Positions 2,399 through 39,050 of a DNA stretch of 60,720 nucleotides are shown piece by piece (positions within the stretch are counted from its first letter, which is position 1; each line of letters opens with the position of its first letter). The notes below the pieces were generated by a model that worked only from the letters and a program-made list of their open reading frames with translations, had not been told where the DNA came from and made no database searches. The DNA is taken from contig JADFIT010000004.1 in NCBI GenBank assembly GCA_022566515.1, forward strand, positions 1 to 60,720, in the 5' to 3' direction. A program made the position numbers and the translations under genes. The stretch comes from Gemmatimonadota bacterium. Its GTDB lineage: Bacteria; Gemmatimonadota; Gemmatimonadetes; Gemmatimonadales; GWC2-71-9.

Positions 2399-3271
2399 AT
2401 GAGTGGAGCGATGGCGATCAGAGAGCCGAACTGGGGGGAGTACGCTCAGCGGGCACTGGAAGAGGACTGTGCCGGTCAGGACGTCACTACGGCCTTGCTG
2501 GGTGAGCGTGCCGCACGGCCTGCGGCAGGGCGACTCCGTGCGGAAGGCAGCTTCGTGGTGGCGGGCCTTCCGTTGGTGGCTGCCGTGTTTCGGGAGCTGG
2601 AGGCGTCAACATCCGTCGAGCCGGTGGTTGCCGAAGGCGGCAGGGTCGCGGCAGGAGACAGTGTGGCGGTGGTTCGCGGGCCTGGTGGCGCACTGCTTTC
2701 GGGCGAACGTGTCGCCTTGAACTACCTCCAGCGACTCAGCGGGATCGCCAGCGTGACGCGTCGTGCAGTGGAAGCGGTGGCAGGAACCGGCGCGGTCATC
2801 ACGGACACGCGCAAGACGACGCCGGGACTCAGGGAACTGGAGAAATACGCGGTGCGTGTCGGTGGTGGTGAGAATCACCGGGCATCGCTGGCAGATGCGG
2901 TTCTCTGGAAGGACAACCATTGGGAACTGTTGGGGAATCGTGAAGGCCGAGGTCTGGCCGAGTTGTTACGCGGTGTGGCGGAAGGGGTGAGGGTGTGTGT
3001 TGAGGTGGAAGACGAGCAACAGCTCGATGCAGTACTGGACGCTGGTGTTGACTGGATTCTGGCGGACAATCAAACGCCGGAAACGATTGCCGCGTGGTCG
3101 CGACGCTGCGGACCTGAGGTCACCATAGAGGCTTCGGGCGGCATCATGCCCGACACCGCACGCCGGTATGCCGAGGCCGGTGCGCGGCGGATTTCGATCG
3201 GCGCTCTTACGTATGCTCCCGATATCGTTTCAATCAGCTTCGAAATCAGTCTCCTCAGGTCCTCACCTTGA
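2399..3271 (+). CDS. nadC: Nicotinate-nucleotide pyrophosphorylase (quinolinate phosphoribosyltransferase)
   Basis: Converts quinolinate and PRPP to nicotinate mononucleotide in de novo NAD synthesis. The 290-residue protein has the family length and its landmarks: ALNYLQRLSGIAS, the PRPP/quinolinate-binding DTRKTTPGLR, the VRVGGGENHR stretch, LWKDNHW, VEVEDEQQ, LADNQTP and the terminal barrel strand EASGGI. The ATG at 2399 follows GGAGACGG and gives a normal N-terminus (MSGAMAIREP); an upstream in-frame start at 2351 has no better support. Its end overlaps the convergent lptG by 17 bp. No nadA or nadB lies in the window. Confidence 0.95.
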   Translation: MSGAMAIREPNWGEYAQRALEEDCAGQDVTTALLGERAARPAAGRLRAEGSFVVAGLPLVAAVFRELEASTSVEPVVAEGGRVAAGDSVAVVRGPGGALLSGERVALNYLQRLSGIASVTRRAVEAVAGTGAVITDTRKTTPGLRELEKYAVRVGGGENHRASLADAVLWKDNHWELLGNREGRGLAELLRGVAEGVRVCVEVEDEQQLDAVLDAGVDWILADNQTPETIAAWSRRCGPEVTIEASGGIMPDTARRYAEAGARRISIGALTYAPDIVSISFEISLLRSSP

Positions 3272-4337
3272 TCATCAGCCAGAGCCCGGCGAAAGAGAAC
3301 AAGATATTGGGCATCCATGCAGCCCACACCGGTGGCAGCAACCCGCCGGTACCGATTCCCTGGGAGAGCTGCACCAACAGGAGGAACACGATCGTGGTGC
3401 CGAGGCCGACGCCGATGCCGAACGCGCCACTCACTCGTGGGGCGGTAACGGCGAGTGGCGCGCTGAAGAGGGCGATGATCAAGCATGTGAAGGGAATGGC
3501 GATCTTGAGTTCCTGTCCCACTCGAAGCTTCCTGCCATCTCCGCCCGAGCGTTCCAGCGCATCGATATACCGGCCCAGCTCCACGTAGTCCATCTCTTCG
3601 GGCCGTGCCGGCTCGGCGAGGAGCGCTGCGGGCTCTTCTGAAAAATCTCGCACGCGCATCGAGTCGAACTCGAACGTCAACGCTGTATGGCCGCCGGTGA
3701 GGATGCGAAAGCGCCCGCCGCGCAAAGTCCAACGCGCGAGGGAATCGGAGTAGGTTCCGCGGCGACTCTGGACGATCAGAGTTGGGTATTCCTCCCCGGT
3801 GCCCTCGCGCTCCATTTGAATGTCGCGCACCAGCCGCTGCGACTCGTCGATAGAAGAGATCACATAGACCCAACCCTCTTCGGCCCGGTACACGAAGTTG
3901 AACCGCCGAGAACCGGATTGCTGTTCGCGCTCGCCGAGCAGCTCCATTTGCTTTCGAGTAGCTGCCGGAGAGATCTCGCCGACGCCTAGTGCCAATCCGG
4001 TGGCGATGAGAGACGCCATCAGAATAGGGACGACGAGGCGGTAGAAGCTTTGTCCCGACGCTTTGGCCGCGCTCAATTCCGAATGGCGGCTGAATGCACT
4101 GATGGTGAAGACGGTGGCGAAGAGCACTGCCGCGGGAAGAACGAGGCTGAGGTTTGCGGGGAAGCTGAAGACATAACTCAGCGCCAACTCTGCCGGAGCA
4201 ATCCCTTGCAGCAGGTAGTCATTCATCTTCTCGGTGACATCAATGATGATCACGAACAAGGGGAAGCCGGCAGCAGTGGCCACGAAGATCTTGGTCCACT
4301 CCCACAGCAGGTAACGATCGAGCAACCCGAATTTCAC
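3255..4337 (-). CDS. lptG: LPS export permease LptG (YjgP/YjgQ family)
   Basis: One of the two inner-membrane permeases of the Lpt system that extracts lipopolysaccharide for transport to the outer membrane. The 360-residue product has the expected length: membrane helices at the N-terminus (DRYLLWEWTKIFV), a periplasmic beta-jellyroll (about residues 130-260, with LIVQSRRGTYSDS and WTLRGGRFR) and C-terminal helices (FTCLIIALFSAPLAV). The start is the GTG at 4335-4337, which overlaps the lptF stop as GTGA, so the two are translationally coupled. A longer reading exists inside lptF but has no family similarity. LptB, LptC and LptA are not in the window. Confidence 0.9.
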   Translation of the reverse strand: MKFGLLDRYLLWEWTKIFVATAAGFPLFVIIIDVTEKMNDYLLQGIAPAELALSYVFSFPANLSLVLPAAVLFATVFTISAFSRHSELSAAKASGQSFYRLVVPILMASLIATGLALGVGEISPAATRKQMELLGEREQQSGSRRFNFVYRAEEGWVYVISSIDESQRLVRDIQMEREGTGEEYPTLIVQSRRGTYSDSLARWTLRGGRFRILTGGHTALTFEFDSMRVRDFSEEPAALLAEPARPEEMDYVELGRYIDALERSGGDGRKLRVGQELKIAIPFTCLIIALFSAPLAVTAPRVSGAFGIGVGLGTTIVFLLLVQLSQGIGTGGLLPPVWAAWMPNILFSFAGLWLMIKVRT

Positions 4338-5839
4338 GGGTCGTCCCGCCGGCGGGTCGGGAGTTTGGCGCGCATAGCGGCTAGGAGAGTACCGACGCCG
4401 CGAGCCGTGGTGGCTCTCCGGCGAATGTGGTGCAGCCCGGCGAGGCCCAACAGCCCGAACACGATATTCGGCGTCCACATCGCCAATGGAGCAGGCACGA
4501 CGAGCTGGTTGGCGAAAGACTCACCCGCAATGAGGCCGATATAATAAACGGTGAAGACACCGAGGCTCACACCGATAACGAGGCCCACACCCGCTCGTGG
4601 GAACCGAACCGCCACCGGCACGGCGACGATTACAAATATGAACGACGCTGCAGCCATAGCGTACTTCTTGTGTACTTCGACCAGATAATTCGCCGCACGG
4701 ATTCTCGCGCTGCGTGCGCGATCGCGGAGCGAGTGTGCGGATCGAATGTTCGGTGGACGGACTCCGCTGGTGTACACTATGCGGCCCGGTTCGCCGGTGT
4801 GCTCGTCCTCGACGGACGCCTCCGTGGTGGAGTCGGGGCCCTGCTCCTGTGCTTCCGCCGCCTTCGGGGCAAGCCATGCTGCGATGTCTTCTAACGCGCG
4901 GCAATAAACGGTCGGTCTGGATTCGAGTTCGCTCGAGTCGATCGGGATGGGTGCCAGGCCGACCAAGCCGCGTAAACCGTTCAGCTCAATACCGGCGGCG
5001 CGCCGCTCCGCAAAGCTCCCCTCTCGACGTGCCACGACGATCACCGAGTCCATCTCGCACACGCTCATTTCCCGATCACCCTTGAACCGATCGGCCTCGC
5101 TGCGTGAGAAGTTGCCGCCGATACCCTTGACGCGGATGATCTGGCGGCGGAAATCCATCACCTGGAATTGCCGCGGATCCTGGCGGTTCGACTCGTGCAT
5201 GGTGCCGTCGAACAGCGTAAGGTAGAGATCCCGCTGATCGGCGCCGAACCCCATCGTGCCGCTGTCTGCATAGATGGTCCGCTTCCTGGTTTGATTCGTG
5301 AGGTCGTAGATCGTAACATCGCGGAGCTGATAAGTCGCTCGGTTGATGCGGCTGGCTCGGAGGAAGAATCTATCACGCTGCACTTCATTGATGACCTGCT
5401 CCTCGAGCGAGAAAGTCGGCTTGGTTCGGGCGATATCGGTCAACAGGGTCTTGAGGCGGTGGTTGGATCGGGGCAGCACCTGGTCGCTGAAAAGAAACGC
5501 CACTACTGTCATGAAGACCCCGGCGACCAGCAGAGGACGCATCAGCTGCCCTATGGAAACTCCGCCGGCGTGCAACGCAGTGAGTTCGTTTTCCGCCGCC
5601 AGTCGGCTCACCACGTACAAGACGGCGACGAGAACGGCCATCGGCATGGTCATCGCGACCACAAACGGGACCGAAAGGGCGAATACCTCCACTATCACAG
5701 ACCAGGGCAAGCCCTTGCCCACGAGATCGGGAAGCCGTTTCGCAATCTGGTTCAGGATCATGATGCTCGTGCACGCCGACATGGCGAACACGAACGGAAC
5801 CAGGTGCTGCTTGAGGAGGTATTTGCTGAGTATCGTCAC
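4334..5839 (-). CDS. lptF: LPS export permease LptF (YjgP/YjgQ family), with extended periplasmic region
   Basis: Partner permease of LptG. The protein begins at a GTG (5839) with the typical SKYLLKQHLVPFVFA segment and has the first helices and the VSRLAAENELTALHAGG coupling-helix region that contacts LptB. At 501 residues it is about 140 longer than usual. The excess lies between the jellyroll and the last helices (about residues 230-390) and includes an acidic, Glu/Ser/Thr-rich low-complexity stretch before the final helices (FIFVIVAVPVAVRF). The gene is divergent from sprA with only 47 bp between them, so the promoters must overlap there. Family assignment is firm; the role of the insertion is unknown. 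Confidence 0.88.
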   Translation of the reverse strand: MTILSKYLLKQHLVPFVFAMSACTSIMILNQIAKRLPDLVGKGLPWSVIVEVFALSVPFVVAMTMPMAVLVAVLYVVSRLAAENELTALHAGGVSIGQLMRPLLVAGVFMTVVAFLFSDQVLPRSNHRLKTLLTDIARTKPTFSLEEQVINEVQRDRFFLRASRINRATYQLRDVTIYDLTNQTRKRTIYADSGTMGFGADQRDLYLTLFDGTMHESNRQDPRQFQVMDFRRQIIRVKGIGGNFSRSEADRFKGDREMSVCEMDSVIVVARREGSFAERRAAGIELNGLRGLVGLAPIPIDSSELESRPTVYCRALEDIAAWLAPKAAEAQEQGPDSTTEASVEDEHTGEPGRIVYTSGVRPPNIRSAHSLRDRARSARIRAANYLVEVHKKYAMAAASFIFVIVAVPVAVRFPRAGVGLVIGVSLGVFTVYYIGLIAGESFANQLVVPAPLAMWTPNIVFGLLGLAGLHHIRRRATTARGVGTLLAAMRAKLPTRRRDDP

Positions 5840-5886: not shown

Positions 5887-8800
5887 GTGAGGAGTCTCGC
5901 TTCCCTGCATAGTATGGCTTACACCCCGTCCACGGCGAAAGTGTCGTGGCCGGTGGTGGTGCTGGGCCTGAGCCTGTTCTTGCCCGCCGGTGCCGGCGCC
6001 CAGATTGGCGGTACCGGCGTTCGCTTCTACCTGGTCACTGACACATTACAAGTACGACCGCCTCCGGCGCTACGGCTGGGGGGGCTGTGGGATCGCCGTT
6101 CCACGCCCCGGTTGGTGGCCCAGCTTTGGGCCGAGGAAACGCGGCGCCTCATCTCGCGCAACCGCGCTCTCCGCTTCAAGCTACGCCTGTTGAGCACTTT
6201 GGCCCCCTTGCCGGAAGACACCACCGGTGGAGGGGGGCAGCGGCCCGTCCCGCCGGTCGATCCGTCCGATGTGGTGCCCCCACCCACCTCCCTCGAGGCC
6301 CTGGCACGCTATGCGGATCTGAGCATCGAGCTGAACGCGCGGCTCGAAAGCCGAGTGGACCGCCTCCGCAATCTCAACTGTACGGCCCTCGACGCCTCCA
6401 ATCCCGCGTCTGGTTGTCAGGGAGGCTTCCCGACGCCGCTGCTGGACCAGGAATTTTCGCTTCGCGTGGGCGGGGTGATCGGCGACCGCCTCCACGTCAA
6501 CGTGGACTTCGACAGCCAACGCGAGTTCAGCGCAAACAACCGGATCAACGTGTGGTACCAGGGTCTCGAAGATGACATCCTGCGCCGGGTGGAGGTAGGG
6601 AACCTCGACTTTCGGCTACCCTCATCGCGATTCATCACATCGGCGATCCCCGCCAATTCGTTTGGGATCCAGGCCGAAGCTCAACTGGGACCAATGGAGT
6701 TCCGGTCCATCTTGGCGCAGCAGAAGGGGTCGTCTGTGAGAGTCCGAGTATTCACGGTGGGCGACGAGGCGACGCAGGTGATCGAACGGGAGTCGCGTGA
6801 CGTGGAGTTCGAGGACAGCCGGTTTTTCTTCATCGTGAACCCGCTGTTCCTGCCGGCGTACCCCAACGTAGATGTGTTGAACATCGTGCCCGAAGCGCTG
6901 CCGGTCGCGCTCCGGCTCGTCCAAGTCCGAGTCTATCGTCTCCGCGCGCAAAGCGGGCAGGTCGGCATCAACCCCAGCCTGCGGGGCATCGAAGCCGTGG
7001 CCCGGCGTGACGACAGTCCGCAGCGTGTCGGTCCCTTCTTTTGGGATCTCTTGATCGAGGGTCGGGATTACTACCTCGACCCGTCAGGCCTGTGGTTCGG
7101 GTTGCAGAATCGGGTGGGGCTAGACGAGTTCCTGGCTGTTTCTTATGTGACAGCTGCCGGAGACACCGTGGGCACTTTTCCGTCGGTGACGGGCCCGAGC
7201 GACACTTTGTTTCTGATTCACGAGCCGCGGCGCGGTCCGGAGGTTCCCACCTTCCTCCATGAGATGAGGAACTTCTATCGGATCGGTGGCGGCATCAGTC
7301 GAACGACGATCGATTTATCGCTCGTAGTGAACGATTCAGAACGTCCCTTGGATGGAGTGGGAACATATCTGGCACGGCTCGGCCTGGCCACGTCCACCGA
7401 TCCGAGCCAACTCGACGAGTTCAATCGCGTTTTCCCCCGCGAGCGGGACCCCGGTGGTGGCTCACCCCTGCGTGATCTCTTCGTCGTGTTTCCGCACCTA
7501 CAGCCTTTGGCCGACAGCTCACGCCTGCTGGAGGGCGAGCGCAACGACTCGATTTACCGCACACCCACGTTCCTGCGCAACACCGAGGGGCCTGCTCCGC
7601 GGTTTCGCTTCATTTGGGATTATCAGGCCGCGGGCTCCGGCGATCGATCGCGCCTGAACCTCGGCGCGCTGCAGATCCGGATCGGCAGCGAGCAAATCCG
7701 TATCGGGAATCGCGACCTCGTCCGCGGGCGGGATTACGAAATCTCCTATGACCTGGGTGCGGTGACGTTTCTCAATCCCGATTCTCTATTCACCGGTCCA
7801 ACACGCGTGCAAGTGCGCTTTGAACAGAATCAGTTGTTTGATGTCGCTCCGAGCAGCGTGTTCGGGTTTCAGGGTACCTACAATCTCGGCTCGCTGGGGC
7901 GCATCGACGCAACGACGCTGTTCCAGCAAGAGCGAACGATCTTCACGCGTCCTACCTTGGGCTTCGAGCCGCAAGCCATGTTCCTCGGCGGCCTCAGCAC
8001 GGAGCTGCGGTTTCGCGCCGATGGACTCACGCGCGCCCTCGACGCCCTTCCTCTGTTGAGCACAAACGTGCCCTCTACGCTCGAGATCAGCGGGGAGGTA
8101 GCCGTGTCCCGCCCCAACCCGAATCTTACCAGGCAGGCGTACCTGGAGGAGTTCGAGACTCAGTCGTCGACTGTCATAAGTCTCGGCGAGCAGAAGTTTC
8201 AGCTTGGTAGCCGTCCGGCGTCCGGAAGGGGGGTTCCGGCGACACACCTCTCCACACTCGGCGAATTCGATACCAACGACGCCGTGACGTTCGTGTGGCA
8301 AAACGCCATCGAGAAAAGCGACGGTGAGGTGTTTGAAGTCGGCCCCCAGGAGATCGACTCCAGCATAGTGCTGACGGGCGCGTCGCGGCCGAAGGAGACG
8401 CTTCTTTGGCTGACGCTCAAGCCGGATACGGTGGGAGGAGGTCCCGATCCTCTGACCGGCCGTGCGCGCTGGATCCGCCCGTCCACGCCGGGCCCGCGGT
8501 GGCGCAGCATCACGCAGCCGCTCGACCGTTCGGGTCTTGGCGTTGACCTGTCCCGTATTGAGTTTCTCGAGTTCTGGGCCTTGGAGGAAACGGGGCTCGG
8601 CAGGGCTCAAGAAGTCAACCTCGTGTTCGATTTCGGCACCGTGCTGGAGGATGCGGTAGCGTTTGGGCCCGATTCGTTCAGGGTCGTTGGCAACGACACG
8701 ATATTCTCGGGCTTTCAGCAGATCGGCGCCGCGGTGCTGGATTCGGAGAAGGATCCGTTCACCAACTTGTTCAACGCCTCAGTGAATGATGTTGGAATTC

Positions 8801-11800
8801 ACGGAGACCTGCTTCCGTCCATCCACAACATCAACACTGGGCAGGTGTTGACTGATTTCCCCATGTGCGAGCGCGTGTTCACCGGCGTGACGATCCCCGC
8901 TTTTCCCCGTGGTGATCTCAGCGCTCGGTGCACACGCAACAACGGATTCGTGGATTCAGAGGACCTCAACGGCGATAATCGGTTGGATCGCAGCATCGGG
9001 GTCACCCAGGAGGACGTCACGCGGTACGTGGTGCAACTCGGTGACCCTCGCTTCGTGGTTCGGGACGGTAGCGTGCTCCAGCCATCACAGGTCGACGGTA
9101 TTGCCCGACAGTGGAAGCTCTATCGCATTCCCTTCCGGCGGGACACGGTGCAGATCGGCTCTCCCGACTTGAGACGGATCCGCACGCTTCGGATTACAAT
9201 GGTGGCGCCCGCTCGTCCGGGTGACGAGAGGGAAGTGGCGGTGGCATTGGCCCGATTGACCCTGGTGGGGGCGCCGTGGCTGAAGCGGGCGGCGACGCCT
9301 ATCCTGGGTCTTGGCGGCCTGCAAGGAGAGTCGCACGGCGAAGTTATCGCGTCTGTCGTCTCGACGGCGGATGAAGATCTGGGGTACACTTCGCCGCCGG
9401 GCGTGATCGATGTCTCCGAACGCCGGGGTGCCGCTTTCGAGTTTGGCTCGCAGCAGATCAATGAGCGGTCGTTGCGCCTCATCGCGCGCGACCTGCGCGT
9501 GGGAGAGCGGGCCGAGGCGTTCTTGCGGTTTGCAGGCGCGGCGGACAAGAACTTTCTCCAATACAGGAGGCTGCGTGTGTGGGCCAGGGGGCGGGGATCC
9601 GGTTGGGAGGCCGGCGATCTCAACTTCTTCATCAAGGTCGGCAGTGACGAAGACAATTTCTATCTCTACACGACGCCGGCTCGCACGGTCGATTGGGAAC
9701 CCGAGGTGGTCGTGGATCTGGATCGCTGGCTCACACTACGGGAGGAGGTGGAGAACGCGTGGCTAGCCGGTGAGAATCCGTCTGGGTCTGTCGATTGTGG
9801 CGGTGGCGACCCGGAGGCGTTCGTGAGGTGCGATGGGCCGTACCTGATTCAGGTTAAGGATCCCGGTGTTCTACCGCCCAATCTGGCGCGCGTTTCGGAA
9901 ATTGCGGTCGGTATCTTGCGCGTAGGCCAATCCATTTTCATTCCCCAAGCGGAGTTGTGGGTGGACGACATCCGCCTGAGCGATGTGGTGGCCGACGTGG
10001 GTGTGGCTGGCGCGGTCGAGGCTCGCTTGACCGCCGCCGACTTTGCCGAAATCGATTTTTCATTCGTCAGTACCGACGATCGCTTCCGCACGATCGATCA
10101 GGCGCCTGACTATCGTGCAGATGCCCGAACACGCTTCGGCTCGACCGTGCGTATCGACAAATTGCTTCCCGAGTCGTGGGGGATGAGCATTCCCTTCTCC
10201 GTCCGATATCAGCGTCTTGCCACAGAGCCGTTCTTCGTTCGAAACAGTGACGTGCGGGCGCAATCGCTTACGAATCTTCGAACCCCCGGAAATTCGGTCA
10301 CTTCGTATCAAGTAGCCCTACGCCGAACGCGACGTGGCAACAGCTTCGCCGAGCGATTGTTGTTGGACCCGCTGTCGCTGGCGGCGACGCGCCTGAATGC
10401 GCGAAACGCCTCGGAGCTGAGCACGGCAGTGACGAAGAATCGCCAAGTCAGGGCTGAGTATGACAACCGCCCGGCGCCCGAGACAGTCTCGGCGGTGCCC
10501 GGCTTCTTGGTTCGGCTCGTGGAGCGGTTGCCCAGATGGGTGAGAGATAGTGAATTCGGCAAGGGGCTGCGAACGTCTAGAGTGCGATGGAATCCTTATC
10601 AAATACGCGTGAGGTCCGAACTCACCAACAACCTGACCGAGCGACGCACCTTCCGCATACCGGTGACGCTGCCGGACGATCAGTCGCGGGCGCCTCTGCG
10701 AAGCGTGGTTCATACCTGGCGTAACACGATAGGTGCAGACTTGCGTCCGTTTTCTTCGTTGGGGTTGCGTGTGGACTACGTTACGACTCGGGATTTGCAG
10801 GACTATGGTGATTCGACACAGATCGGAAGGTTAGTGAGCGACCATCGCGGCACTTTCGCCGGCAGGGATGTCGGCTTTGAGCGAGATCGCACGCTGTCAA
10901 CTCGCCTAACGACTACTCCAGTCATCAATAGCTGGTTGCGACCGAGGTTCAGTTTCTCCAGCAACTATGTATTCCATCGCGACCCCAACGGGCGTGTTGC
11001 CGTTCAGGTGGTAAGTGATTCGGGCACGACCTTTCGCATTCCGGAAGCCCTGTCCAACTCGAGAGATCGGGTCATGGGTGCGACGTTGGACTTACGCAGG
11101 CTGGTTGAAGTCGTTGCTGGAGCATCGAGTACTGTAGCACGCGTTTTCAGGGGGATTGTTCCAGCCGACGTTTCGTTCCGCACCACCAGAGGGTCTACCT
11201 TCGACCGCATACCGTTCGAGCCCACATTGCGGTATCAACTCGCCCTCGGGGGAGCGGATGAATTTCGGGAGCAAGAGGGCGTGCTTGCAACATCGGCCGT
11301 CGAGTCAAAGCAGTGGACGCTTGCCGGGGGATCCAGGCTCCCCTTGGGATTCGACCTGCGATTTGACTTTCGCCGGACGAAGGCGAACACGTGGGCGCGA
11401 CGAGGCGACCAACAGACACTAATCGAACAGAACTTTCGCCAGTGGCCGTCCGGTACGGTGTCGTGGGTGTTCACGCCACCGAGGGGTATGCGAAGCCTGT
11501 TGTCTAGTGTGACGGCCCGGGCGCGGTATCGCCGTACTGTGGCTTCCAGCTTCCAGCCGGGCGCACTCGGTTTACTGGGACAGGGAACCGAGGACGGCGG
11601 GAGCAGCGCCACGGGAGTGTTCACGGAAACCGTATCCACGAACTTCGCACCGACGGTTACGTTGACGTGGGCGGCAGGCGTGGTGAGCAGAGTCGAGTAT
11701 ACACGTTTTCAGAGCGACATGCTCACATCGGGTAGCCGCACCGTGAATGATGTGCAACGCTTGGGAGCGAGTCTCAATTTCTCAGTCAAAGCGCCTAGTT

Positions 11801-12084
11801 GGTTGGTTCGGCTCCCTAGTGAAATTCGCACGTCGGTCACGGCGAGTGCCACGGACGACAGCGTGTGCTTGCAGCGGAGCGGCAGTGCAGAGTGCGCTTC
11901 CGTATCTGAGAGCAGCCGGCGCCAGTTGGATTTCCGGCTGGACACCGCCTTTCCACCCAGCATGCGAGGCGGCGCAAGCTTCACCTACGTGCTGACCGAA
12001 GAACGGCACACGTCGAGCAAATTCTCACAAATAGTTTTCACGGTATTCTTGAACATAAACTTTTTGGCGAGTCAGGTGCGATGA
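5887..12084 (+). CDS. sprA: SprA/Sov-family outer-membrane protein (type IX secretion translocon homologue)
   Basis: At 2065 residues this is a giant outer-membrane beta-barrel protein. In Bacteroidetes SprA is the translocon pore of the type IX secretion system, needed for gliding and for secretion of surface proteins. SprA hallmarks are visible: VNVDFDSQREFSANNRINV, then WYQGLEDDILRRVEVGN (about residues 200-240), repeated FEFGSQQINERS-type units, and alternating beta-strand sequence to the C-terminus. A signal peptide is present (hydrophobic core WPVVVLGLSLFL) with predicted cleavage after AGA, leaving Gln39 as residue 1 of the mature protein. The start is GTG 5887 or ATG 5914; both keep the signal peptide. 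The 3' end overlaps the glutaminyl cyclase gene as ATGA. No GldKLMN, PorV or PorU partners are in the window. Confidence 0.88.
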   Translation: MRSLASLHSMAYTPSTAKVSWPVVVLGLSLFLPAGAGAQIGGTGVRFYLVTDTLQVRPPPALRLGGLWDRRSTPRLVAQLWAEETRRLISRNRALRFKLRLLSTLAPLPEDTTGGGGQRPVPPVDPSDVVPPPTSLEALARYADLSIELNARLESRVDRLRNLNCTALDASNPASGCQGGFPTPLLDQEFSLRVGGVIGDRLHVNVDFDSQREFSANNRINVWYQGLEDDILRRVEVGNLDFRLPSSRFITSAIPANSFGIQAEAQLGPMEFRSILAQQKGSSVRVRVFTVGDEATQVIERESRDVEFEDSRFFFIVNPLFLPAYPNVDVLNIVPEALPVALRLVQVRVYRLRAQSGQVGINPSLRGIEAVARRDDSPQRVGPFFWDLLIEGRDYYLDPSGLWFGLQNRVGLDEFLAVSYVTAAGDTVGTFPSVTGPSDTLFLIHEPRRGPEVPTFLHEMRNFYRIGGGISRTTIDLSLVVNDSERPLDGVGTYLARLGLATSTDPSQLDEFNRVFPRERDPGGGSPLRDLFVVFPHLQPLADSSRLLEGERNDSIYRTPTFLRNTEGPAPRFRFIWDYQAAGSGDRSRLNLGALQIRIGSEQIRIGNRDLVRGRDYEISYDLGAVTFLNPDSLFTGPTRVQVRFEQNQLFDVAPSSVFGFQGTYNLGSLGRIDATTLFQQERTIFTRPTLGFEPQAMFLGGLSTELRFRADGLTRALDALPLLSTNVPSTLEISGEVAVSRPNPNLTRQAYLEEFETQSSTVISLGEQKFQLGSRPASGRGVPATHLSTLGEFDTNDAVTFVWQNAIEKSDGEVFEVGPQEIDSSIVLTGASRPKETLLWLTLKPDTVGGGPDPLTGRARWIRPSTPGPRWRSITQPLDRSGLGVDLSRIEFLEFWALEETGLGRAQEVNLVFDFGTVLEDAVAFGPDSFRVVGNDTIFSGFQQIGAAVLDSEKDPFTNLFNASVNDVGIHGDLLPSIHNINTGQVLTDFPMCERVFTGVTIPAFPRGDLSARCTRNNGFVDSEDLNGDNRLDRSIGVTQEDVTRYVVQLGDPRFVVRDGSVLQPSQVDGIARQWKLYRIPFRRDTVQIGSPDLRRIRTLRITMVAPARPGDEREVAVALARLTLVGAPWLKRAATPILGLGGLQGESHGEVIASVVSTADEDLGYTSPPGVIDVSERRGAAFEFGSQQINERSLRLIARDLRVGERAEAFLRFAGAADKNFLQYRRLRVWARGRGSGWEAGDLNFFIKVGSDEDNFYLYTTPARTVDWEPEVVVDLDRWLTLREEVENAWLAGENPSGSVDCGGGDPEAFVRCDGPYLIQVKDPGVLPPNLARVSEIAVGILRVGQSIFIPQAELWVDDIRLSDVVADVGVAGAVEARLTAADFAEIDFSFVSTDDRFRTIDQAPDYRADARTRFGSTVRIDKLLPESWGMSIPFSVRYQRLATEPFFVRNSDVRAQSLTNLRTPGNSVTSYQVALRRTRRGNSFAERLLLDPLSLAATRLNARNASELSTAVTKNRQVRAEYDNRPAPETVSAVPGFLVRLVERLPRWVRDSEFGKGLRTSRVRWNPYQIRVRSELTNNLTERRTFRIPVTLPDDQSRAPLRSVVHTWRNTIGADLRPFSSLGLRVDYVTTRDLQDYGDSTQIGRLVSDHRGTFAGRDVGFERDRTLSTRLTTTPVINSWLRPRFSFSSNYVFHRDPNGRVAVQVVSDSGTTFRIPEALSNSRDRVMGATLDLRRLVEVVAGASSTVARVFRGIVPADVSFRTTRGSTFDRIPFEPTLRYQLALGGADEFREQEGVLATSAVESKQWTLAGGSRLPLGFDLRFDFRRTKANTWARRGDQQTLIEQNFRQWPSGTVSWVFTPPRGMRSLLSSVTARARYRRTVASSFQPGALGLLGQGTEDGGSSATGVFTETVSTNFAPTVTLTWAAGVVSRVEYTRFQSDMLTSGSRTVNDVQRLGASLNFSVKAPSWLVRLPSEIRTSVTASATDDSVCLQRSGSAECASVSESSRRQLDFRLDTAFPPSMRGGASFTYVLTEERHTSSKFSQIVFTVFLNINFLASQVR

Positions 12085-12977
12085 TGAAGAATCTCTCTGC
12101 TACGATGACGGTTGGGTTGCTCCTGGCGTGTAGCAGCGGTGGTGAGGCCGCGCTGCAGTTCGATGGCGCCGTGGCGCTGTCGTACGTCGAGGCACAAATG
12201 AACTTCGGGAACCGGATTCCAAATACGGAAGCGCATAGACGCACCGGCGACTGGATACTCGCCCATCTGCAGTCGCGAGCCGATTCCACCGAGGTGCAAC
12301 AATTTACTCACGTGACGGCCGCCGGAGACACCCTCCACCTCAGAAACTTCATCGCCCGCTTTCGCCCGGACCTTGCTGAACGGATTCTGTTCCTGGCCCA
12401 CTGGGACACCCGGCCCGTCGCCGATAAGGACACCAATCTGGGCCGGCGAAGGCTGCCTACACCGGGCGCCAACGACGGCGGGTCTGGTGTCGCCATCTTG
12501 CTGGGAATAGCGGACGAGCTCGAGAAAGAGCCGCCGGCCTTCGGCGTCGATCTGTTGTTCGTAGACGGTGAAGATTACGGTGACTGGACGGCGAGAACCG
12601 ATGTGTTGCTGGGGTCGAAGTATTTCTCGGCCAATCTCCCCGAGGGCTATCAACCCCTCTATGCCGTGCTGTTCGACATGGTCGGTGACGCCGATTTACA
12701 GATTCCCAAGGAAGGCTATTCCGTTGACGGAGCGCCCGAAGTGGTCGATCGCATGTGGCAGAAGGCGCGAGACATTGGCTGGGGCAGCATCTTCCGCCAG
12801 GATGTCGGAAGCTGGGTGACGGACGATCACATCCCGCTCCAAGAGGCCGGAATCCGCGCGATCGACGTCATCGATTTCACCTACCCCCATCATCACACCA
12901 CCGACGACACCCTCGACAAGATCAGCGCTCGCAGCCTCGCGATAGTGGGCAGCGTTGCCCTCGCCCTCGTCCGCTGA
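12081..12977 (+). CDS. Glutaminyl-peptide cyclotransferase (M28-fold glutaminyl cyclase), probable lipoprotein
   Basis: Predicted zinc enzyme that cyclises N-terminal Gln to pyroglutamate on exported proteins. The 298-residue product carries the animal-type QC pattern on the M28 fold: AHWDTRP, GANDGGSG (metal Asp), FVDGEDYGDW (Glu), LGSKYF, FDMVGDAD, TDDHIPLQEAGI and HHHTTDDT (metal His). The DDHIP box is typical of glutaminyl cyclases rather than aminopeptidases. The N-terminus has a lipobox-like LLAC with Cys17 followed by SSGG, suggesting membrane anchoring. It starts at ATG 12081 overlapping the sprA stop (a second ATG is at 12084), so it is coupled to sprA, whose mature N-terminus is predicted to be Gln. 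An ordinary M28 aminopeptidase is the alternative. Confidence 0.85.
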   Translation: MMKNLSATMTVGLLLACSSGGEAALQFDGAVALSYVEAQMNFGNRIPNTEAHRRTGDWILAHLQSRADSTEVQQFTHVTAAGDTLHLRNFIARFRPDLAERILFLAHWDTRPVADKDTNLGRRRLPTPGANDGGSGVAILLGIADELEKEPPAFGVDLLFVDGEDYGDWTARTDVLLGSKYFSANLPEGYQPLYAVLFDMVGDADLQIPKEGYSVDGAPEVVDRMWQKARDIGWGSIFRQDVGSWVTDDHIPLQEAGIRAIDVIDFTYPHHHTTDDTLDKISARSLAIVGSVALALVR

Positions 12978-13052: not shown

Positions 13053-13673
13053 ATGGCCACCAGGGATGACACAAGGGCAGCCTTCCTGCTCCTCGCGCTG
13101 GCCCTAGCCGGTGCGTTTCTCCGATTCCTCGGACTGGGGGGGGAGAGTCCCGGAGAAATCGGGTACCGCGGCGGTGTAGGCGGACGCCCGGTCCTGGACT
13201 CGGTCGCGGCAGCCGCGGTGCGGCTTGCCCAGCCGCTGCGTCCCGGCGAGCGAGTAGATCTCGACCGGGCGAATGCCGTGGAGCTGTCCCGGCTCCCGCG
13301 TATCGGACCCGGCCTGTCGGCGCGGATCGTAGCGGATCGGGAGGTCCGGGGGCCGTTCGGATCGCTGGAGGAGGTCGCCCGCGTACCTGGAGTGGGTCCA
13401 TCCGTGGTGGAGGCGATCCGGCCCTTCAGCACGTTCTCCGGAGTTGTCAGATATGCAGATTCGCCAAGAAAAACGGTGCCAAAGGTGAGCTTGAACACAG
13501 CGACGGCTGCGGATCTGGAGCAACTTCCCGGGATCGGTCCGGTGAAGGCTTTGGCGATCGTGGAAGATCGGCGCCGCAACGGCCGCTACCGTACCATCGA
13601 GGATTTGAGTCGCGTGCGAGGCATTGGTCCGGCCACGATCGAGCGGCTGCGCAGCCTTGTCACCGTACGCTGA
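13053..13673 (+). CDS. ComEA-like helix-hairpin-helix DNA-binding protein
   Basis: The 206-residue protein has one N-terminal membrane segment (AFLLLALALAGAFLRFL) and two ComEA-type helix-hairpin-helix units. These are about residues 70-130 (DLDRANAVELSRLPRIGPG, then PGVGPSVVEAI) and 145-205 (SLNTATAADLEQLPGIGPV, then RGIGPATIERL). ComEA binds incoming double-stranded DNA at the periplasmic face during natural transformation, which uses type IV pili. Its place just before pilB, pilT and pilC fits that role. Duplicated HhH units are a little unusual for ComEA, which normally has one pair. No ComEC is visible in the window. Upstream, 12978-13052 holds only a weak AGAGC/GCTCT hairpin. Confidence 0.8.
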   Translation: MATRDDTRAAFLLLALALAGAFLRFLGLGGESPGEIGYRGGVGGRPVLDSVAAAAVRLAQPLRPGERVDLDRANAVELSRLPRIGPGLSARIVADREVRGPFGSLEEVARVPGVGPSVVEAIRPFSTFSGVVRYADSPRKTVPKVSLNTATAADLEQLPGIGPVKALAIVEDRRRNGRYRTIEDLSRVRGIGPATIERLRSLVTVR

Positions 13674-13770: not shown

Positions 13771-15474
13771 ATGGTGACATCCGCTGTCAGCGGTTTGCGG
13801 ATAGGGGACTTGCTGGTCGGTGAAGGCCTGATCTCGCAGGAGCAGCTCGAGCAGGCGCTGATCGAGCAACGCAGTTCGGGTGCCCGGTTGGGTTACGTCT
13901 TGGTGAAGCTGGGCTTTGTTCTGGAGATCGAGATCACCAAGATGCTGGCCCGCCAGTATCACGTGCCGGCAGTCGACCTGTCGCGGTTTGAAGTAGACGA
14001 AAAGATCATCAAGCTTGTTCCATCCGATGTGGCTCTGAAGCATACGGTCTTGCCGCTGAAGCGGGACGGCCGCAGCCTGACCGTCGCCATGGCGGAGCCG
14101 GGCAACATGCAGATCGTCGACGATCTCAAGTTCATCACCCGGTGCGACATCGTACCGGTGATAGCGGGTGAGTACACACTGCGGACCGCGATAGAGAAAT
14201 ACTACGAGCAGACCGACGCGCAGCTGGCGAGTCTTCTCGAGGGTATGGAAGACGAGGATCTCGAGATCGTGGAGGAGGAGGAAGAGGAAGAAGCAGACTA
14301 CGCGATTGCGGATGATGCGCCGGTGGTGAAGCTCATCAACGGTCTTCTTACCGACGCTGTGCGGCGTGGGGCGAGTGACATCCACATCGAGCCGTTCGAG
14401 ACGGAGTTGCGTGTGCGATACCGTATCGACGGGGCGCTCCTGGAGGTGATGAAGCCGCCGCTCAAGTTGAAGGCGGCTCTCACCAGCCGTGTCAAGATCA
14501 TGTCCAACCTCAACATCGCCGAGCGCCGGGTGCCGCAGGACGGCCGGATCAAGATCAAAGTGGGTAAGCGAGTGATCGATTTCCGGGTCTCGACGTTGCC
14601 GGTGATCTTTGGTGAGAAGATCGTGATGCGGATTTTGGACAAGGGCAACCTGACGTTGGACCTGAAGACGTTCGGGTTCGAGCCCAAGGCCGAGAAGGAT
14701 CTCATGACCGCCATCTCGAATCCGTACGGGATGGTGCTGGTTACGGGGCCCACTGGTTCGGGGAAAACCACGACTCTGTATTCCGCTCTGTCGCAGGTGA
14801 ACACCATTGATGTCAACATCATGACCGCAGAGGATCCGGTGGAGTACAACATCCACGGGATCAATCAGGTCTTGGTGCGGAACGAGATTGGCATGACGTT
14901 TGCGGCGGCGCTGAGGGCGTTCCTGCGTCAGGATCCCAATATCATCATGGTTGGGGAGATCCGTGACCTCGAGACCGGTAGTATCGCGATCAAGGCGGCG
15001 TTGACTGGACACTTGGTGCTTTCCACGTTGCACACCAACGACGCGCCATCGACGATCACCCGGATGCTCGACATGGGCATCGAGCCGTTCAACGTCGCTA
15101 GTGCCGTGAACCTGATCGTGGCCCAGCGGCTGATTCGGCGCATCTGCAAGGATTGCAAGGCGGAGCATGAGTATACGTCCGATGAGTTGGCCGCTCTTGG
15201 GATGACGGATGGCGAGCTGGCGGAGATTACGTTCTACAAGGGCACGGGATGCTCGAGTTGCGGTGACACCGGGTATCGGGGCCGCGCCGGTCTGTACGAA
15301 GTCATGGCGCTCACGCCGGCTCTGCGGCGCATGATTTTGCAGGGCGGGTCTGCCGACGAGCTGAAGGAGAAGGCGATCGAGGAGGGCATGCTCACCCTCC
15401 GTATGGATGGTATAATGAAGCTTCGCAAAGGGATCACCACGCTCGAGGAAATCGTCAAAGAAACGGCGGGATAA
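13771..15474 (+). CDS. pilB: Type IV pilus extension ATPase PilB with N-terminal MshEN domain
   Basis: Cytoplasmic hexameric ATPase powering pilus assembly. The 567-residue protein has an MshEN domain made of two exact 24-residue motifs separated by five residues: Arg10-Gln33 (starting RIGDLLVGEGLIS) and Arg39-Gln62 (starting RLGYVLVKLGF). Such motifs bind c-di-GMP in MshE. A glutamate-rich linker (about 155-175) follows. The motor core has Walker A GPTGSGKT near residue 326, Walker B IIMVGEIRD near 390, and the tetracysteine zinc site of assembly ATPases (CKDC about 458, CSSC about 493). It is followed four bases later by pilT. The alternative, a type II secretion GspE, is unlikely given the neighbours. 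Confidence 0.95.
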   Translation: MVTSAVSGLRIGDLLVGEGLISQEQLEQALIEQRSSGARLGYVLVKLGFVLEIEITKMLARQYHVPAVDLSRFEVDEKIIKLVPSDVALKHTVLPLKRDGRSLTVAMAEPGNMQIVDDLKFITRCDIVPVIAGEYTLRTAIEKYYEQTDAQLASLLEGMEDEDLEIVEEEEEEEADYAIADDAPVVKLINGLLTDAVRRGASDIHIEPFETELRVRYRIDGALLEVMKPPLKLKAALTSRVKIMSNLNIAERRVPQDGRIKIKVGKRVIDFRVSTLPVIFGEKIVMRILDKGNLTLDLKTFGFEPKAEKDLMTAISNPYGMVLVTGPTGSGKTTTLYSALSQVNTIDVNIMTAEDPVEYNIHGINQVLVRNEIGMTFAAALRAFLRQDPNIIMVGEIRDLETGSIAIKAALTGHLVLSTLHTNDAPSTITRMLDMGIEPFNVASAVNLIVAQRLIRRICKDCKAEHEYTSDELAALGMTDGELAEITFYKGTGCSSCGDTGYRGRAGLYEVMALTPALRRMILQGGSADELKEKAIEEGMLTLRMDGIMKLRKGITTLEEIVKETAG

Positions 15475-15478
15475 CTGA

Positions 15479-16633
15479 ATGACTGAAGCAGCGGCGCCGG
15501 CGCAACAAGAAAAGAGGCTCAACCTCCGCGTCTTGCTAGAGGAGATGATCCAGCGTGGTGCGTCGGATCTGCACATTACGGCGGGCGAAAACCCCAAACT
15601 TCGGGTGGACGGTGACATCGTCAGCTCGAATGAATGGGTGAAGCCGCTCACGGCGAAGGAGACGCTTCAGGTAGCGTATTCGGTGCTGACCGAAGACCAG
15701 AAGAAGCGGTTCGAGAACGATGACGAGCTGGATTTTTCATTCGGCATTCAGGATCTGTCCCGGTTTCGAGGCAATTGCTTCAAGCAACGTGGCTGCACCG
15801 CCATCGTGATTCGGCAGATTCCCATTCAGATCAGGACATTCGAGGATCTGGGACTATCGCCGGTGCTGGCCGAGCTGTCGAAGAGACCTCGGGGGCTGGT
15901 GCTGGTCACCGGGCCTACTGGTTCGGGTAAATCGACGACTCTCGCCGCCATGATCGACCGCATCAACCGTGAGCGGCGCGGCCACATCATTACGGTAGAA
16001 GATCCGATAGAGTTCGTGCACCGGCACCAAAAGTGCATCATCAACCAACGTGAGATTGGGACGGATACGAAATCATTCGCCACCGCATTGAAGTACGCGC
16101 TTCGCCAGGATCCGGACGTCGTTCTGATCGGTGAGATGCGCGATCAGGAAACGATCCAGGCTGCTCTGACCATTGCGGAGACCGGACACTTGGCTTTCGC
16201 CACCCTACACACCAACTCGGCGGCGGAATCGATCAATCGAATCATCGACGTTTTTCCTTCGCACCAGCAGTCGCAAGTTCGTGGACAACTAGCGTTCGTA
16301 TTGGAAGGCGTCGTTACACAAATACTGCTCCAGAAGGCATCGGGCAGAGGGCGCGTCATGGCTGCGGAGATCATGATCTGCACGCCGGCCATTCGAGCGC
16401 TCATTCGTGATGACAAAGTGCATCAAATTGTGTCGCAGATGCAGGCCGGGAGGAAATACGGCATGGTGACATTGACGGATGCGCTGTACACTCTGTACAT
16501 GCAACGCGAAATAACCATAGAGGAAGCGTTGCGCGTGGTGCCGGACCAGAATGAGTTCCTACGTGCAATCGGGGAGCCGATGCCAGGAAGCCCCTTGGCC
16601 GGCAAACAACGATCGGCCGCGGGCCGGCGCTAG
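15479..16633 (+). CDS. pilT: Type IV pilus retraction ATPase PilT
   Basis: Motor ATPase that disassembles the pilus and drives twitching motility and DNA uptake. The 384-residue product has the PilT length and lacks the zinc tetracysteine of PilB. It shows RGASDLHIT at the N-terminal domain, Walker A GPTGSGKS near residue 145, the Asp/His boxes (ITVEDPIEFVH, TGHLAFATLHTNSA) and AIRALIRDDK near residue 304. That last segment is the AIRNLIRE-type motif required for retraction. The gene starts four bases after the pilB stop and 21 bases before pilC, forming one operon. A PilU-type accessory ATPase is less likely because the retraction motif is well conserved. Confidence 0.95.
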   Translation: MTEAAAPAQQEKRLNLRVLLEEMIQRGASDLHITAGENPKLRVDGDIVSSNEWVKPLTAKETLQVAYSVLTEDQKKRFENDDELDFSFGIQDLSRFRGNCFKQRGCTAIVIRQIPIQIRTFEDLGLSPVLAELSKRPRGLVLVTGPTGSGKSTTLAAMIDRINRERRGHIITVEDPIEFVHRHQKCIINQREIGTDTKSFATALKYALRQDPDVVLIGEMRDQETIQAALTIAETGHLAFATLHTNSAAESINRIIDVFPSHQQSQVRGQLAFVLEGVVTQILLQKASGRGRVMAAEIMICTPAIRALIRDDKVHQIVSQMQAGRKYGMVTLTDALYTLYMQREITIEEALRVVPDQNEFLRAIGEPMPGSPLAGKQRSAAGRR

Positions 16634-16654
16634 AGAGGTTAGGAGAGCAATCTT

Positions 16655-17848
16655 ATGCCCCTATTCGAGTACACTGCTCAGACGGTAGGCGGTGAGGAGC
16701 AGACCGCGACCATCGACCTGCCTACCAAGGATGATGTCATGGCCCACCTTCGCCAAAAGCGACTGCGGGTGGTTCGGGTACGCGAGGCGAAGAAGGCGAA
16801 GCGCAAGACAAAGGTCCCGACTCGCGACGTTGTGATCTTTACTCGGCAATTTGCCACGATGATCAACGCCGGGCTGCCGCTGGTACAGGCCCTGGATATC
16901 TTGGCCCGGCAAACGGATAACAAGGCGCTCGCCGATGTGACCAAGCAGGTGGTGTACGACGTAGAGTCGGGTAACACGCTGGCCGACGCGTTGTCGAAGC
17001 ACAAGAACGCGTTCACCGACCTCTTCGTCAACATGGTAGCTGCCGGTGAAGCGGGTGGTATTCTCGACACGATTCTCCTGCGCCTCGCCGTGTTCCTCGA
17101 AAAGAACGACGCCATCATCCGCAAGGTAAAGGGCGCCATGGTCTACCCTGCCGTGATTTTCTCCGTGGCGGGGATAGCGATAGTCATCCTGTTGATATTC
17201 GTCATTCCGACTTTCCAGGTGATGTTTGCCCAGGTAAATATGGAGCTGCCGATTCCAACGAAAATCGTGATTGGGATGAGCGACTTCTTGCAGAAGTTTT
17301 GGTGGGCTCTCGGAGGTGGGGGCTTCGCCTTCGTGTGGCTCCTTAAGAAGTGGTACGCCACCGATGGCGGGCACCTCTTCCTCGACAGGATGATGCTGAA
17401 TGCGCCGGTGCTGGGCGACTTGCTTCGCAAATCGGCCGTGTCGCGGTTTACCCGAACCCTCGGCACGCTCATTTCGTCCGGGGTTTCCATTCTCGAAGGA
17501 CTGGAGATTACCGCGCGCACAGCCGGGAACCGGGTGATTCACGACGCCGTCATGCAATCACGTGGGTCGATTGCAGGAGGTGAAACGATCGCCGATCCGC
17601 TCACTAAGTCGGGCGTTTTCCCGCCGATGGTGACCTCCATGATCGCCGTCGGTGAGGCAACAGGCGGGCTGGACGAGATGTTGACCAAGATCGCGGACTT
17701 TTATGACGACGAAGTCGATGCCGCCGTCGGCACGCTCCTATCGCTCATGGAGCCGATCATGATCGTGGTGCTCGGCGTCGTGGTGGGTGGGATGATCGTC
17801 GCCATGTACCTACCGATCTTCAACATGATCGGGTCGGTAGAGGGGTAA
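16655..17848 (+). CDS. pilC: Type IV pilus inner-membrane platform protein PilC
   Basis: GspF-family polytopic protein on which PilB and PilT act. The 397-residue protein contains the two repeated cytoplasmic GspF domains (about residues 65-190 and 270-390, with FTRQFATMINAGLPLVQAL and FTRTLGTLISSGVSILEGL) and three membrane helices (AVIFSVAGIAIVILLIFVI; the WWALGGGGFAFVWLL region; MEPIMIVVLGVVVGGMIVA). A ribosome-binding stretch GAGAGGTTAGGAG precedes ATG 16655. It is the last gene of the pilBTC operon and converges on lysAC across a large inverted repeat. Confidence 0.95.
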   Translation: MPLFEYTAQTVGGEEQTATIDLPTKDDVMAHLRQKRLRVVRVREAKKAKRKTKVPTRDVVIFTRQFATMINAGLPLVQALDILARQTDNKALADVTKQVVYDVESGNTLADALSKHKNAFTDLFVNMVAAGEAGGILDTILLRLAVFLEKNDAIIRKVKGAMVYPAVIFSVAGIAIVILLIFVIPTFQVMFAQVNMELPIPTKIVIGMSDFLQKFWWALGGGGFAFVWLLKKWYATDGGHLFLDRMMLNAPVLGDLLRKSAVSRFTRTLGTLISSGVSILEGLEITARTAGNRVIHDAVMQSRGSIAGGETIADPLTKSGVFPPMVTSMIAVGEATGGLDEMLTKIADFYDDEVDAAVGTLLSLMEPIMIVVLGVVVGGMIVAMYLPIFNMIGSVEG

Positions 17849-18003: not shown

Positions 18004-20595
18004 TCAGATCACTACCTCTTCCGCCGGCTCCCGCAGGTTGTAACGCGAACTCATCGTGTACCCGTACGCCCCGGTGTTTGCGATCAAGAGCACATCGCCC
18101 TCCTCCGTTGGCGGGAGGAGATGATCTACCCCGAGCCGGTCACCGGTCTCGCAGATCGGCCCCACGACGCTCACGACCTCCGTCGCCTTCTGGTCGAGGC
18201 GCGACAGGTTGACGATCCGATGGTAGGCACCGTACAGAGCGGGTCGTATCAAGGAGTTCATCCCAGTGTTCACCCCGATATAGCGAACATCTCCCTTGCC
18301 TTTGATCTGCGTCACTCTGGTCAACAACACACCGCTTCGTGCTACCAGGAATCGACCGGGCTCGAGCCAAATGGAAAGCGACGGATTCGCAGCCTTCAGC
18401 GGGGCCAGGCTGGCGTCGATCGCCTGAAGATCGAGGGCCGACTGGTCGGGCCGCTCGGGAACCCCGAGACCACCACCAAGATTCAAGGTCGCTACATTCG
18501 GGAACTGTTCCGCGACCCGGGCCAGCAAGGCTCCGGTGTTGCTCCAATGAGTCGGCGACAGAATTCCGCTTCCCGAATGAGCGTGTAAGCCCACGATTCG
18601 TGCGCCCGCTGCCTCAGCGAGTCGGCGAAACTCTCCAAGCTCGGTCAACGGGACCCCGAACTTCGACTGCGATCCCGCCGTGTGGACCTTTTCGTGGTGG
18701 CCGTGCCCCTGCCCCGGATCTATCCGCAAGAAGATCTCTCGGTCGCGAAACAAGTCGGGCCAGCAGAGGAGGGGATGGAGATTGTCCAACGTGACCCAAA
18801 CGCCGAGTCGGAGCGCGAAAGCATACTCGTCCTGCGGAGCGAAGTTGGGTGTGAAGAGAATGTCGCGTGGATCGATGTCAGGAAACAGCGATAACACCAG
18901 TTCGACCTCGGCGCGCGAGACGCACTCCAAGCCTAGGCCTGAGTTACGGATACACTCGAGTATTCGCGGATTGGAGTTGGCTTTCATCGCATAAAACACA
19001 CGGTCCACGGCCTCCATCCGTTTCACCTGAGCGACGGCCTCGTAGACGGTTGCGACGTCGTAGACATATGCCGAGGGCCGATCGTCGACAACGGCCAGCA
19101 GCGAATCCCGCTTGCTGTGCCACCAGGGCACATCGGCGATCTCGTCGGTCGCCGGTGATCCTCCCTGCAATTGTTCCCAGGTAGGACCAAACGCTGCGTT
19201 GGGCGCCCGAGTCCGCATCATGAGAGCGTGCAGCCGCTCAACGAGACGGTTTGCGCTCGCTTCCTCCACCACGAACGTGAGGTTGAGGTCGCTGGCCGCC
19301 TGGGTAACGAGATGGACTTGCTGCTCCTGAAAGACCTCCAAGGCGGGACCGAGCTGATGCAGAATCGCGCGAATGTGGCGACCTACGAGGCTCACCGCGG
19401 CGCACGGCGCGATCACCCGAGCCTTGCATATGGCGTTGAGGTCTTCGAGGAGTCCGCCGAGTGAAGTGGAGTCGAGACCGTTGGCGTCGGCGTCCAACGA
19501 AACCGTGACGGTGGTCTCCGATGTCGCAACCAGGTCGATGGAAATTTCGTGGTTCGCAAAGCACCGGAACGCTTCGGCTAGGAACCCCACTTGTTGCCAC
19601 ATGCCGAGGGTCTCCATGGTAACCAGCACCGTTTCACGCTTGACCGAGATCGCCTTCACGCTAGGCGTACCCTCGTCTGCCAAAGCGCAAATCATGGTAC
19701 CCACTTGCTGAGGGTGAGCAATGCTGCGGATATGGATCGGGATGCCGTGCGCACGTACGGTGGGGATGCAGCGGGCATGCAGCACGGCGCTTCCGGTGGT
19801 CGCGATTTCCTGAGCTTCAGCGTAGTCGAGAGTGCGCAGGAGGCGGGCCGATGGGACGATTCGCGGGTCCGCGCTGAACATCCCCGGGACGTCGGTCCAA
19901 ATCTCCAGTAGTTGCGCCTGGAGTTTGACAGCGAAGTAAGCGGCAGATGTGTCGGAGCCTCCCCGGCCCAAGAGCACGGTTTCGCCACTAGAGTCGTGGG
20001 CGATGAACCCTTGCGTGATGATCGTACCGTGTGTCTCCGAGAAGAGCTTGCAGAGCTTCGGATCGGGCTCGCTGGCACACTCTGCCGAGAGAATGCGTGA
20101 ACCGGACGGCGCATCCCTTCTGTCCTGGGTCGTCAGCACTGTTCGCGCATCCACCCATGTGACTTGCTGGCCTTGGGTTCTCAGGTAAGCTGCCCCGAGC
20201 AACGTCGCCATGAGCTCACCGGTGGCCAGGACCCTGGCCTGTAATCGAGGAGAGTACTCTCCCACCAGTGAGATGCCGGCAGCCAATCTGCCGAGTTCGC
20301 TCAAGAGGAGGTCGAGTGACTCGGCGAAGGGTATGTCCAACTCGGCGGCGAGCACTTCGTGTTGGTCTCGAATCGCTCGAGCGATCGGCTCGTGGCTACC
20401 GCCGGTGGCCGCCTTCAGCAGGGCTTCGAGTTGATCAGACACTCCGCTGAGAGCGGAGCATACCACGACGGGACGTGCACCTTCGTCAATTCGTTTCCCA
20501 ACCACCTCGGCGATGGTGCGCCACGCGGGCGCGGACGATACGCTGGTACCGCCGAACTTCATGACCACCCACGGGGATTTTTCTGGAAGGTGCAT
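18004..20595 (-). CDS. lysAC: Bifunctional aspartate kinase / diaminopimelate decarboxylase
   Basis: A single 863-residue polypeptide joins the first and last enzymes of lysine synthesis. Residues 1-450 are an aspartokinase: VVMKFGGTSVS at the N-terminus, GRGGSDTSAAYFA, WTDVPGMFSADP and C-terminal ACT regulatory domains (about 310-450). Residues 470-863 are a PLP-dependent LysA decarboxylase: FYAMKANSN with the Schiff-base lysine near 538, HAHSGSG, LNLGGGLGVP, LEPGRFLVA and CETGDRL. ATG 20595 is chosen because KFGGTS then sits at the usual distance; a GTG at 20637 is also possible. Such fusions are known in Xanthomonadales and a few other groups. Feedback by lysine through the ACT domains is likely. 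Confidence 0.92.
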   Translation of the reverse strand: MHLPEKSPWVVMKFGGTSVSSAPAWRTIAEVVGKRIDEGARPVVVCSALSGVSDQLEALLKAATGGSHEPIARAIRDQHEVLAAELDIPFAESLDLLLSELGRLAAGISLVGEYSPRLQARVLATGELMATLLGAAYLRTQGQQVTWVDARTVLTTQDRRDAPSGSRILSAECASEPDPKLCKLFSETHGTIITQGFIAHDSSGETVLLGRGGSDTSAAYFAVKLQAQLLEIWTDVPGMFSADPRIVPSARLLRTLDYAEAQEIATTGSAVLHARCIPTVRAHGIPIHIRSIAHPQQVGTMICALADEGTPSVKAISVKRETVLVTMETLGMWQQVGFLAEAFRCFANHEISIDLVATSETTVTVSLDADANGLDSTSLGGLLEDLNAICKARVIAPCAAVSLVGRHIRAILHQLGPALEVFQEQQVHLVTQAASDLNLTFVVEEASANRLVERLHALMMRTRAPNAAFGPTWEQLQGGSPATDEIADVPWWHSKRDSLLAVVDDRPSAYVYDVATVYEAVAQVKRMEAVDRVFYAMKANSNPRILECIRNSGLGLECVSRAEVELVLSLFPDIDPRDILFTPNFAPQDEYAFALRLGVWVTLDNLHPLLCWPDLFRDREIFLRIDPGQGHGHHEKVHTAGSQSKFGVPLTELGEFRRLAEAAGARIVGLHAHSGSGILSPTHWSNTGALLARVAEQFPNVATLNLGGGLGVPERPDQSALDLQAIDASLAPLKAANPSLSIWLEPGRFLVARSGVLLTRVTQIKGKGDVRYIGVNTGMNSLIRPALYGAYHRIVNLSRLDQKATEVVSVVGPICETGDRLGVDHLLPPTEEGDVLLIANTGAYGYTMSSRYNLREPAEEVVI

Positions 20596-20658
20596 AGCGG
20601 AGGAAGATATCGTGGGTGAGCATTCGCTGCGAGACACGCACGGGGAGTGGGGAGTTTC

Positions 20659-37724: not shown

Positions 37725-37743
37725 GTCGGGAGATACGGCGGTT

Positions 37744-38430: not shown

Positions 38431-38431
38431 G

Positions 38432-39049: not shown

Positions 39050-39050
39050 T

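Follow-up and report, generated by a model that had tools for sequence, protein, structure and literature searches.

The window (the whole stretch of 60,720 nt that was analysed, from a genome of the phylum Gemmatimonadota) carries on its forward strand a sprA/sov homologue followed by the gene of a predicted glutaminyl cyclase, QC (Table 1). ORF 5887-12084 scores 545 bits against the TIGR04189 SprA/Sov model (cut-off 200) and is matched by the solved F. johnsoniae SprA (PDB 6h3i/6h3j) with an E-value of 1.5e-33; judged by its sequence, it is the SprA/Sov translocon. The start codon is GTG, with an in-frame ATG at 5914 as the alternative. Counted from the GTG, residue 39 is a Gln that directly follows the AGA of the predicted signal peptide (FLPAGAGA/QIGG), as the initial annotation had pointed out. 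By visual count, the SprA signal peptide likewise ends in A/Q or S/Q in some 20 of 30 relatives, and this Gln at position +1 is seen in genomes with type I (plant-type, beta-propeller) as well as type II (bacteroidal-type, M28) QC.

Table 1. Features of the sprA-QC locus (coordinates in the window)
Feature	Coordinates	Strand	Remarks
lptG + lptF, divergent upstream neighbours	3255..5839	-	PF03739; border of the conserved block
sprA/sov homologue, type IX secretion outer-membrane translocon	5887..12084	+	2065 aa; TIGR04189, PDB 6h3i/6h3j
SprA signal peptide, predicted	5887..6003	+	Gln39 codon 6001-6003, after AGA cleavage site
ATGA overlap, sprA stop / QC start	12081..12084	+	4 bases
Type II (bacteroidal-type) glutaminyl cyclase, predicted lipoprotein	12081..12977	+	298 aa; PDB 6qro, 6qql; lipobox LLAC
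comEA-like helix-hairpin-helix protein, downstream neighbour	13053..13673	+	conserved downstream
pilB-like type IV pilus ATPase (by sequence), downstream neighbour	13771..15474	+	conserved downstream in relatives

The two genes share the four-base ATGA overlap noticed earlier, and abutting matches in several relatives imply the same arrangement there; translational coupling of sprA and QC is possible. The conserved neighbourhood has lptG-lptF divergent from sprA-QC-comEA-pilB, with lptG/lptF kept beside sprA or QC in relatives. Elsewhere in the window there are two type IV pilus blocks, one after comEA (13771-17848, pilB/pilT/pilC-like) and one running from pilM to the secretin (36687-41317). 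A PilS/PilR-like pair lies between them at 20813-23889, and a fusion of aspartate kinase and diaminopimelate decarboxylase (lysC-lysA type) is located on the reverse strand at 18007-20637.

The protein encoded downstream of sprA

ORF 12081-12977 encodes an M28 protein matched by solved bacteroidal glutaminyl cyclases with E-values of 6e-53 to 2e-52, the best solved relatives being those of T. forsythia (TfQC) and P. gingivalis (PgQC). The QC motifs are found as GAND(132)G, GE(164)D(165)YG, D199, TDD(249)HIP and H272. Residues D132, E164, D165, D199 and D248/D249 are unchanged across 30 sequences, and H272 pairs in the alignment with the zinc His of TfQC. D165 corresponds to the Asp zinc ligand that is specific to bacteroidal QCs, where it takes the place of Glu (PMC7948796). 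The N-terminus has the lipobox LLAC, and a lipobox occurs in 29 of the 30 QC N-termini from Gemmatimonadota. Both the DDHIP box and the signal for lipid anchoring described in the initial annotation are in place.

The AlphaFold model of the protein has a pLDDT of 94. In a Foldseek search with this model the top ranks are taken by the bacteroidal QCs 3tc8, 7d1e and 6qql (TM 0.87-0.90), followed by a planctomycete QC, an acidobacterial QC and then animal QCs. It should be mentioned that 3tc8, along with 4fuu and 3gux, was moved from the aminopeptidase to the QC class (PMC7948796), and that active-site residues are mostly common to QCs and aminopeptidases (PMC5837995). The reading of the ORF as an ordinary aminopeptidase was rejected on the sequence and the predicted fold, both closest to QCs. 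Assignment to the glutaminyl cyclase family, as proposed earlier, is supported by sequence and model, and cyclase activity is predicted.

Adjacency and loss of sprA and QC

We compared 121 Gemmatimonadota genomes, with sprA present in 89 and M28 QC in 85. In five families (f1-f4 and f8) the QC gene lies directly 3′ of sprA in 44 of the 49 genomes that have both genes; in the remaining five the two genes are on separate contigs. Adjacency is conserved within these families but is seen in none of the 15 genomes of two more distant families (f5 and f9). Nor was sprA detected near QC in any of 80 Bacteroidota QC loci (flanks of up to 10 kb; 52 of the loci spanned 15 kb or more), in a search that does pick up Bacteroidota sprA in control loci; sprA was located elsewhere in the genome in 12 of 12 Bacteroidota genomes from this search. 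Adjacency that is absent in two distant families and in Bacteroidota is therefore no ancestral FCB trait, and the suggestion that the two genes form an ancestral FCB export module does not hold.

In all eight sprA-less loci that we read, QC stands between lptF and comEA/pilB, and in Gemmatimonas (genus g22), which lacks the M28 QC, comEA directly follows sprA. Among the 19 sprA-less genomes of families f1-f4 and f8, 18 are without a strong PorV match and 18 retain QC. Over all 121 genomes, PorV accompanies sprA in 80 of 89 cases and occurs in 2 of the 32 genomes without sprA (odds ratio 133, p = 4e-18), whereas sprA and QC show no association (QC in 64 of 89 genomes with sprA and 21 of 32 without, p = 0.51), both p-values being uncorrected for phylogeny. 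With separate losses at one spot, and with sprA tracking PorV rather than QC, the cyclase has the look of a periplasmic enzyme with a general capping role. The sprA-QC pair is a conserved neighbourhood, neither a co-inherited module nor ancestral to FCB, and the comparison of the 121 related genomes suggests that the two genes lie side by side but are not partners. As the independent losses at this one locus show, conservation and overlap of a gene pair can be a misleading guide to function.

As to other components of type IX secretion, the search proposed in the initial annotation was successful in the source genome for PorV (NF033709, 122 bits) and unsuccessful for PorU (peptidase C25, PF01364), which is absent from this 95% complete genome and present in 6 of 6 f9 genomes. 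CTD cargo (TIGR04183) likewise has no match in the source genome, with 11-33 such proteins in f9 genomes. Models of GldM and GldL gave no match in any of the 121 genomes and that of GldK none over the cut-off, f9 included; the GldM model finds GldM in 5 of 6 Bacteroidota controls, while the GldL model has no positive control. Since f9 genomes have PorU and CTD proteins and yet no GldL/M match, the motor models may miss diverged versions, and we do not take the missing GldL/GldM matches as proof of a pore that lacks a motor.

The f9 genomes (G001, G003, G005, G007, G009, G011) combine PorU with 5-17 PorV-like and 11-33 CTD proteins. In seven sprA-bearing genomes (G014, G030, G036, G043, G044, G050, G066) a weak CTD match closely precedes porV, in most cases within a frame of ~1300 aa that is possibly a diverged PorU; the sprA contig itself carries this match in G030, G036, G043, G044 and G050, at a distance of ~14-23 kb.

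Gln at position +1 and the two types of cyclase

All counts of Gln at +1 come from a home-made signal-peptide predictor and small samples. The cleavage site was set at the last [AVSTGI]xA past the h-region, a rule blind to the +1 residue, and known E. coli sites were recovered, including those of OmpA, MalE and LamB; our first scans, which were noisy and placed cleavage sites too early, were dropped. In 478 kb of the 3.59 Mb source genome, 14 of 28 predicted sites have Gln at +1 with a background of 5.4%, a large excess of the kind that the initial annotation had proposed to look for. Other Gemmatimonadota yielded 3/11, 5/15, 3/4, 8/21 and 2/9, and Bacteroidota run through the same pipeline 32/63. 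The excess in the source genome is real and Bacteroidota-like.

The counts were 0/21 for E. coli, 1/8 for the S. meliloti replicon pSymB, 2/8 for the M. extorquens megaplasmid, 0/8 for the Novosphingobium plasmid pNL2 and 10/19 for the C. metallidurans megaplasmid, the last on a level with Bacteroidota. Many proteins in the C. metallidurans set (L284, L287-L289) are Bug/TctC-like and porin-like. Two Gemmatimonadota genomes with neither type of QC (G034 and G035) gave 6/15. Thus, QC presence and Gln bias are not tightly coupled and, with Gln at +1 also in Cupriavidus and the two QC-less genomes, the excess alone is no proof of cyclization. Q-values published for groups other than Bacteroidetes and Chlorobi lie on a continuum (PMC5837995). 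The capping of N-termini under a Q-rule, as put forward in the initial annotation, has in its favour both the excess and a QC in the same genome; the excess is not specific.

Genomes without the M28 QC frequently carry the unrelated type I QC, PF05096 (29 of 36, vs 13 of 85 with M28 QC; p = 1e-11, uncorrected for phylogeny), and at least one of the two types is present in 114 of the 121 genomes. The source genome has the type II enzyme and no PF05096 match. Both Gemmatimonas propeller QCs that we read (L144, L145) have a lipobox. We considered a hidden divergent M28 QC in the QC-less relatives and rejected it: a profile search of nine of them returned only weak aminopeptidase-like matches, and so it was for the genomes with neither type. 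In several lineages across Gemmatimonadota, M28 and propeller QCs tend to replace one another. Bochtler et al. described the same alternation in Bacteroidetes, where the two unrelated lineages are rarely found together (574 species with the animal type, 507 with the plant type and 63 with both; PMC5837995); the pattern is therefore new for this phylum only.

In the explanation that we regard as likely, SprA and QC have separate jobs and share a conserved neighbourhood. SprA would serve, along with PorV, as the pore in the outer membrane, and the type IX secretion system to which it belongs would be sparse or diverged. QC would most likely be a lipid-anchored periplasmic enzyme that cyclizes the N-terminal Gln bared by signal peptidase I in many exported proteins, SprA among them; the cyclized N-termini would be shielded from aminopeptidases, in the way demonstrated in P. 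gingivalis, and in other lineages of the phylum the unrelated lipoprotein QC (beta-propeller, PF05096) would stand in for the M28 enzyme. Enzymatic activity, pyroglutamate formation and a protective role of QC at this locus are what we infer. Points that speak against this explanation are the loose link between QC presence and Gln bias, the equal bias in C. metallidurans and the His271 found here at the place of Trp298 of PgQC.

Alternatively, QC could belong to a dedicated export module with SprA, capping SprA itself or its cargo, the overlap coupling their synthesis. The ATGA overlap, the adjacency in 44 of 49 genomes (the other five having the genes on separate contigs) and the +1 Gln of SprA in most relatives read are what one would expect of such a module, to which, under the name of genetic wiring, the initial annotation had inclined. 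Still, sprA-less genomes of the five families have nearly all kept QC and lost PorV, the two more distant families and the Bacteroidota QC loci show no adjacency, and in P. gingivalis type IX secretion is not steered by cyclization (PMC5837995), so that we hold a dedicated module to be quite improbable. The +1 Gln could also be a matter of signal-peptidase or composition preference with no capping involved, the M28 protein being an aminopeptidase or a cyclase of few substrates. The Gln excess in C. metallidurans and in the two genomes with no recognizable QC (G034/G035) is in line with this, as is the sharing of most active-site residues by QCs and aminopeptidases (PMC5837995). Against it, the closest matches in sequence and fold are biochemically proven QCs, the bacteroidal-QC Asp ligand is present, one QC family tends to stand in for the other, unrelated one, and both types carry a lipobox; we consider a preference with no capping unlikely.

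Comparison with known systems

The Q-rule of Bacteroidetes, an excess of Gln right after the signal peptidase I site combined with a lipoprotein QC (Bochtler 2018, PMC5837995; mBio 2023, PMC10653852), has been tied in published work to the proteolytic life style of these bacteria and was said to be found ‘exclusively in the Bacteroidetes’ (PMC10653852); Gemmatimonadetes are unmentioned in the text of the 2018 survey (PMC5837995). Going by sequence evidence, Gemmatimonadota probably follow the rule too, which would conflict with the claim of exclusivity in PMC10653852; what is new is the phylum, the system itself being already known. We lean slightly towards pyroglutamate capping being phylum-wide in Gemmatimonadota, under selection strong enough that two unrelated lipoprotein cyclases swap in several lineages. 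If so, the Q-rule reaches beyond Bacteroidetes, and a physiological role in Gemmatimonadota can be proposed for bacterial type I cyclases. Were Gln bias and cyclase alternation shared by a second phylum, the rule would be a wider, possibly older export habit.

Common to both phyla are the +1 Gln excess, the lipoprotein QC and the rare co-occurrence of two unrelated QC lineages; the difference, apart from the phylum, is that the case presented here is known from sequence. With regard to SprA and type IX secretion, the likeness consists in the equivalog score against TIGR04189 and the co-occurrence with PorV; unlike the known systems, the source genome has no recognizable PorU, CTD cargo or GldK/L/M. 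The propeller QC (PF05096) belongs to a family with the same reaction, shares the lipobox in its two Gemmatimonas copies and has an unrelated fold. The cyclase of this locus is closest to PgQC, TfQC and BtQC (PMC7948796; PDB 6qql, 6qro, 7d1e), sharing with them the fold (TM about 0.87-0.90), about 35-40% identity, the Asp as third zinc ligand and the lipid anchor. It differs from PgQC in having His271 where PgQC has Trp298 (the Trp next to the zinc His in PgQC/TfQC), and in its gene neighbourhood, with QC adjoining sprA here while PgQC shares an operon with PG_2158 and hemG.
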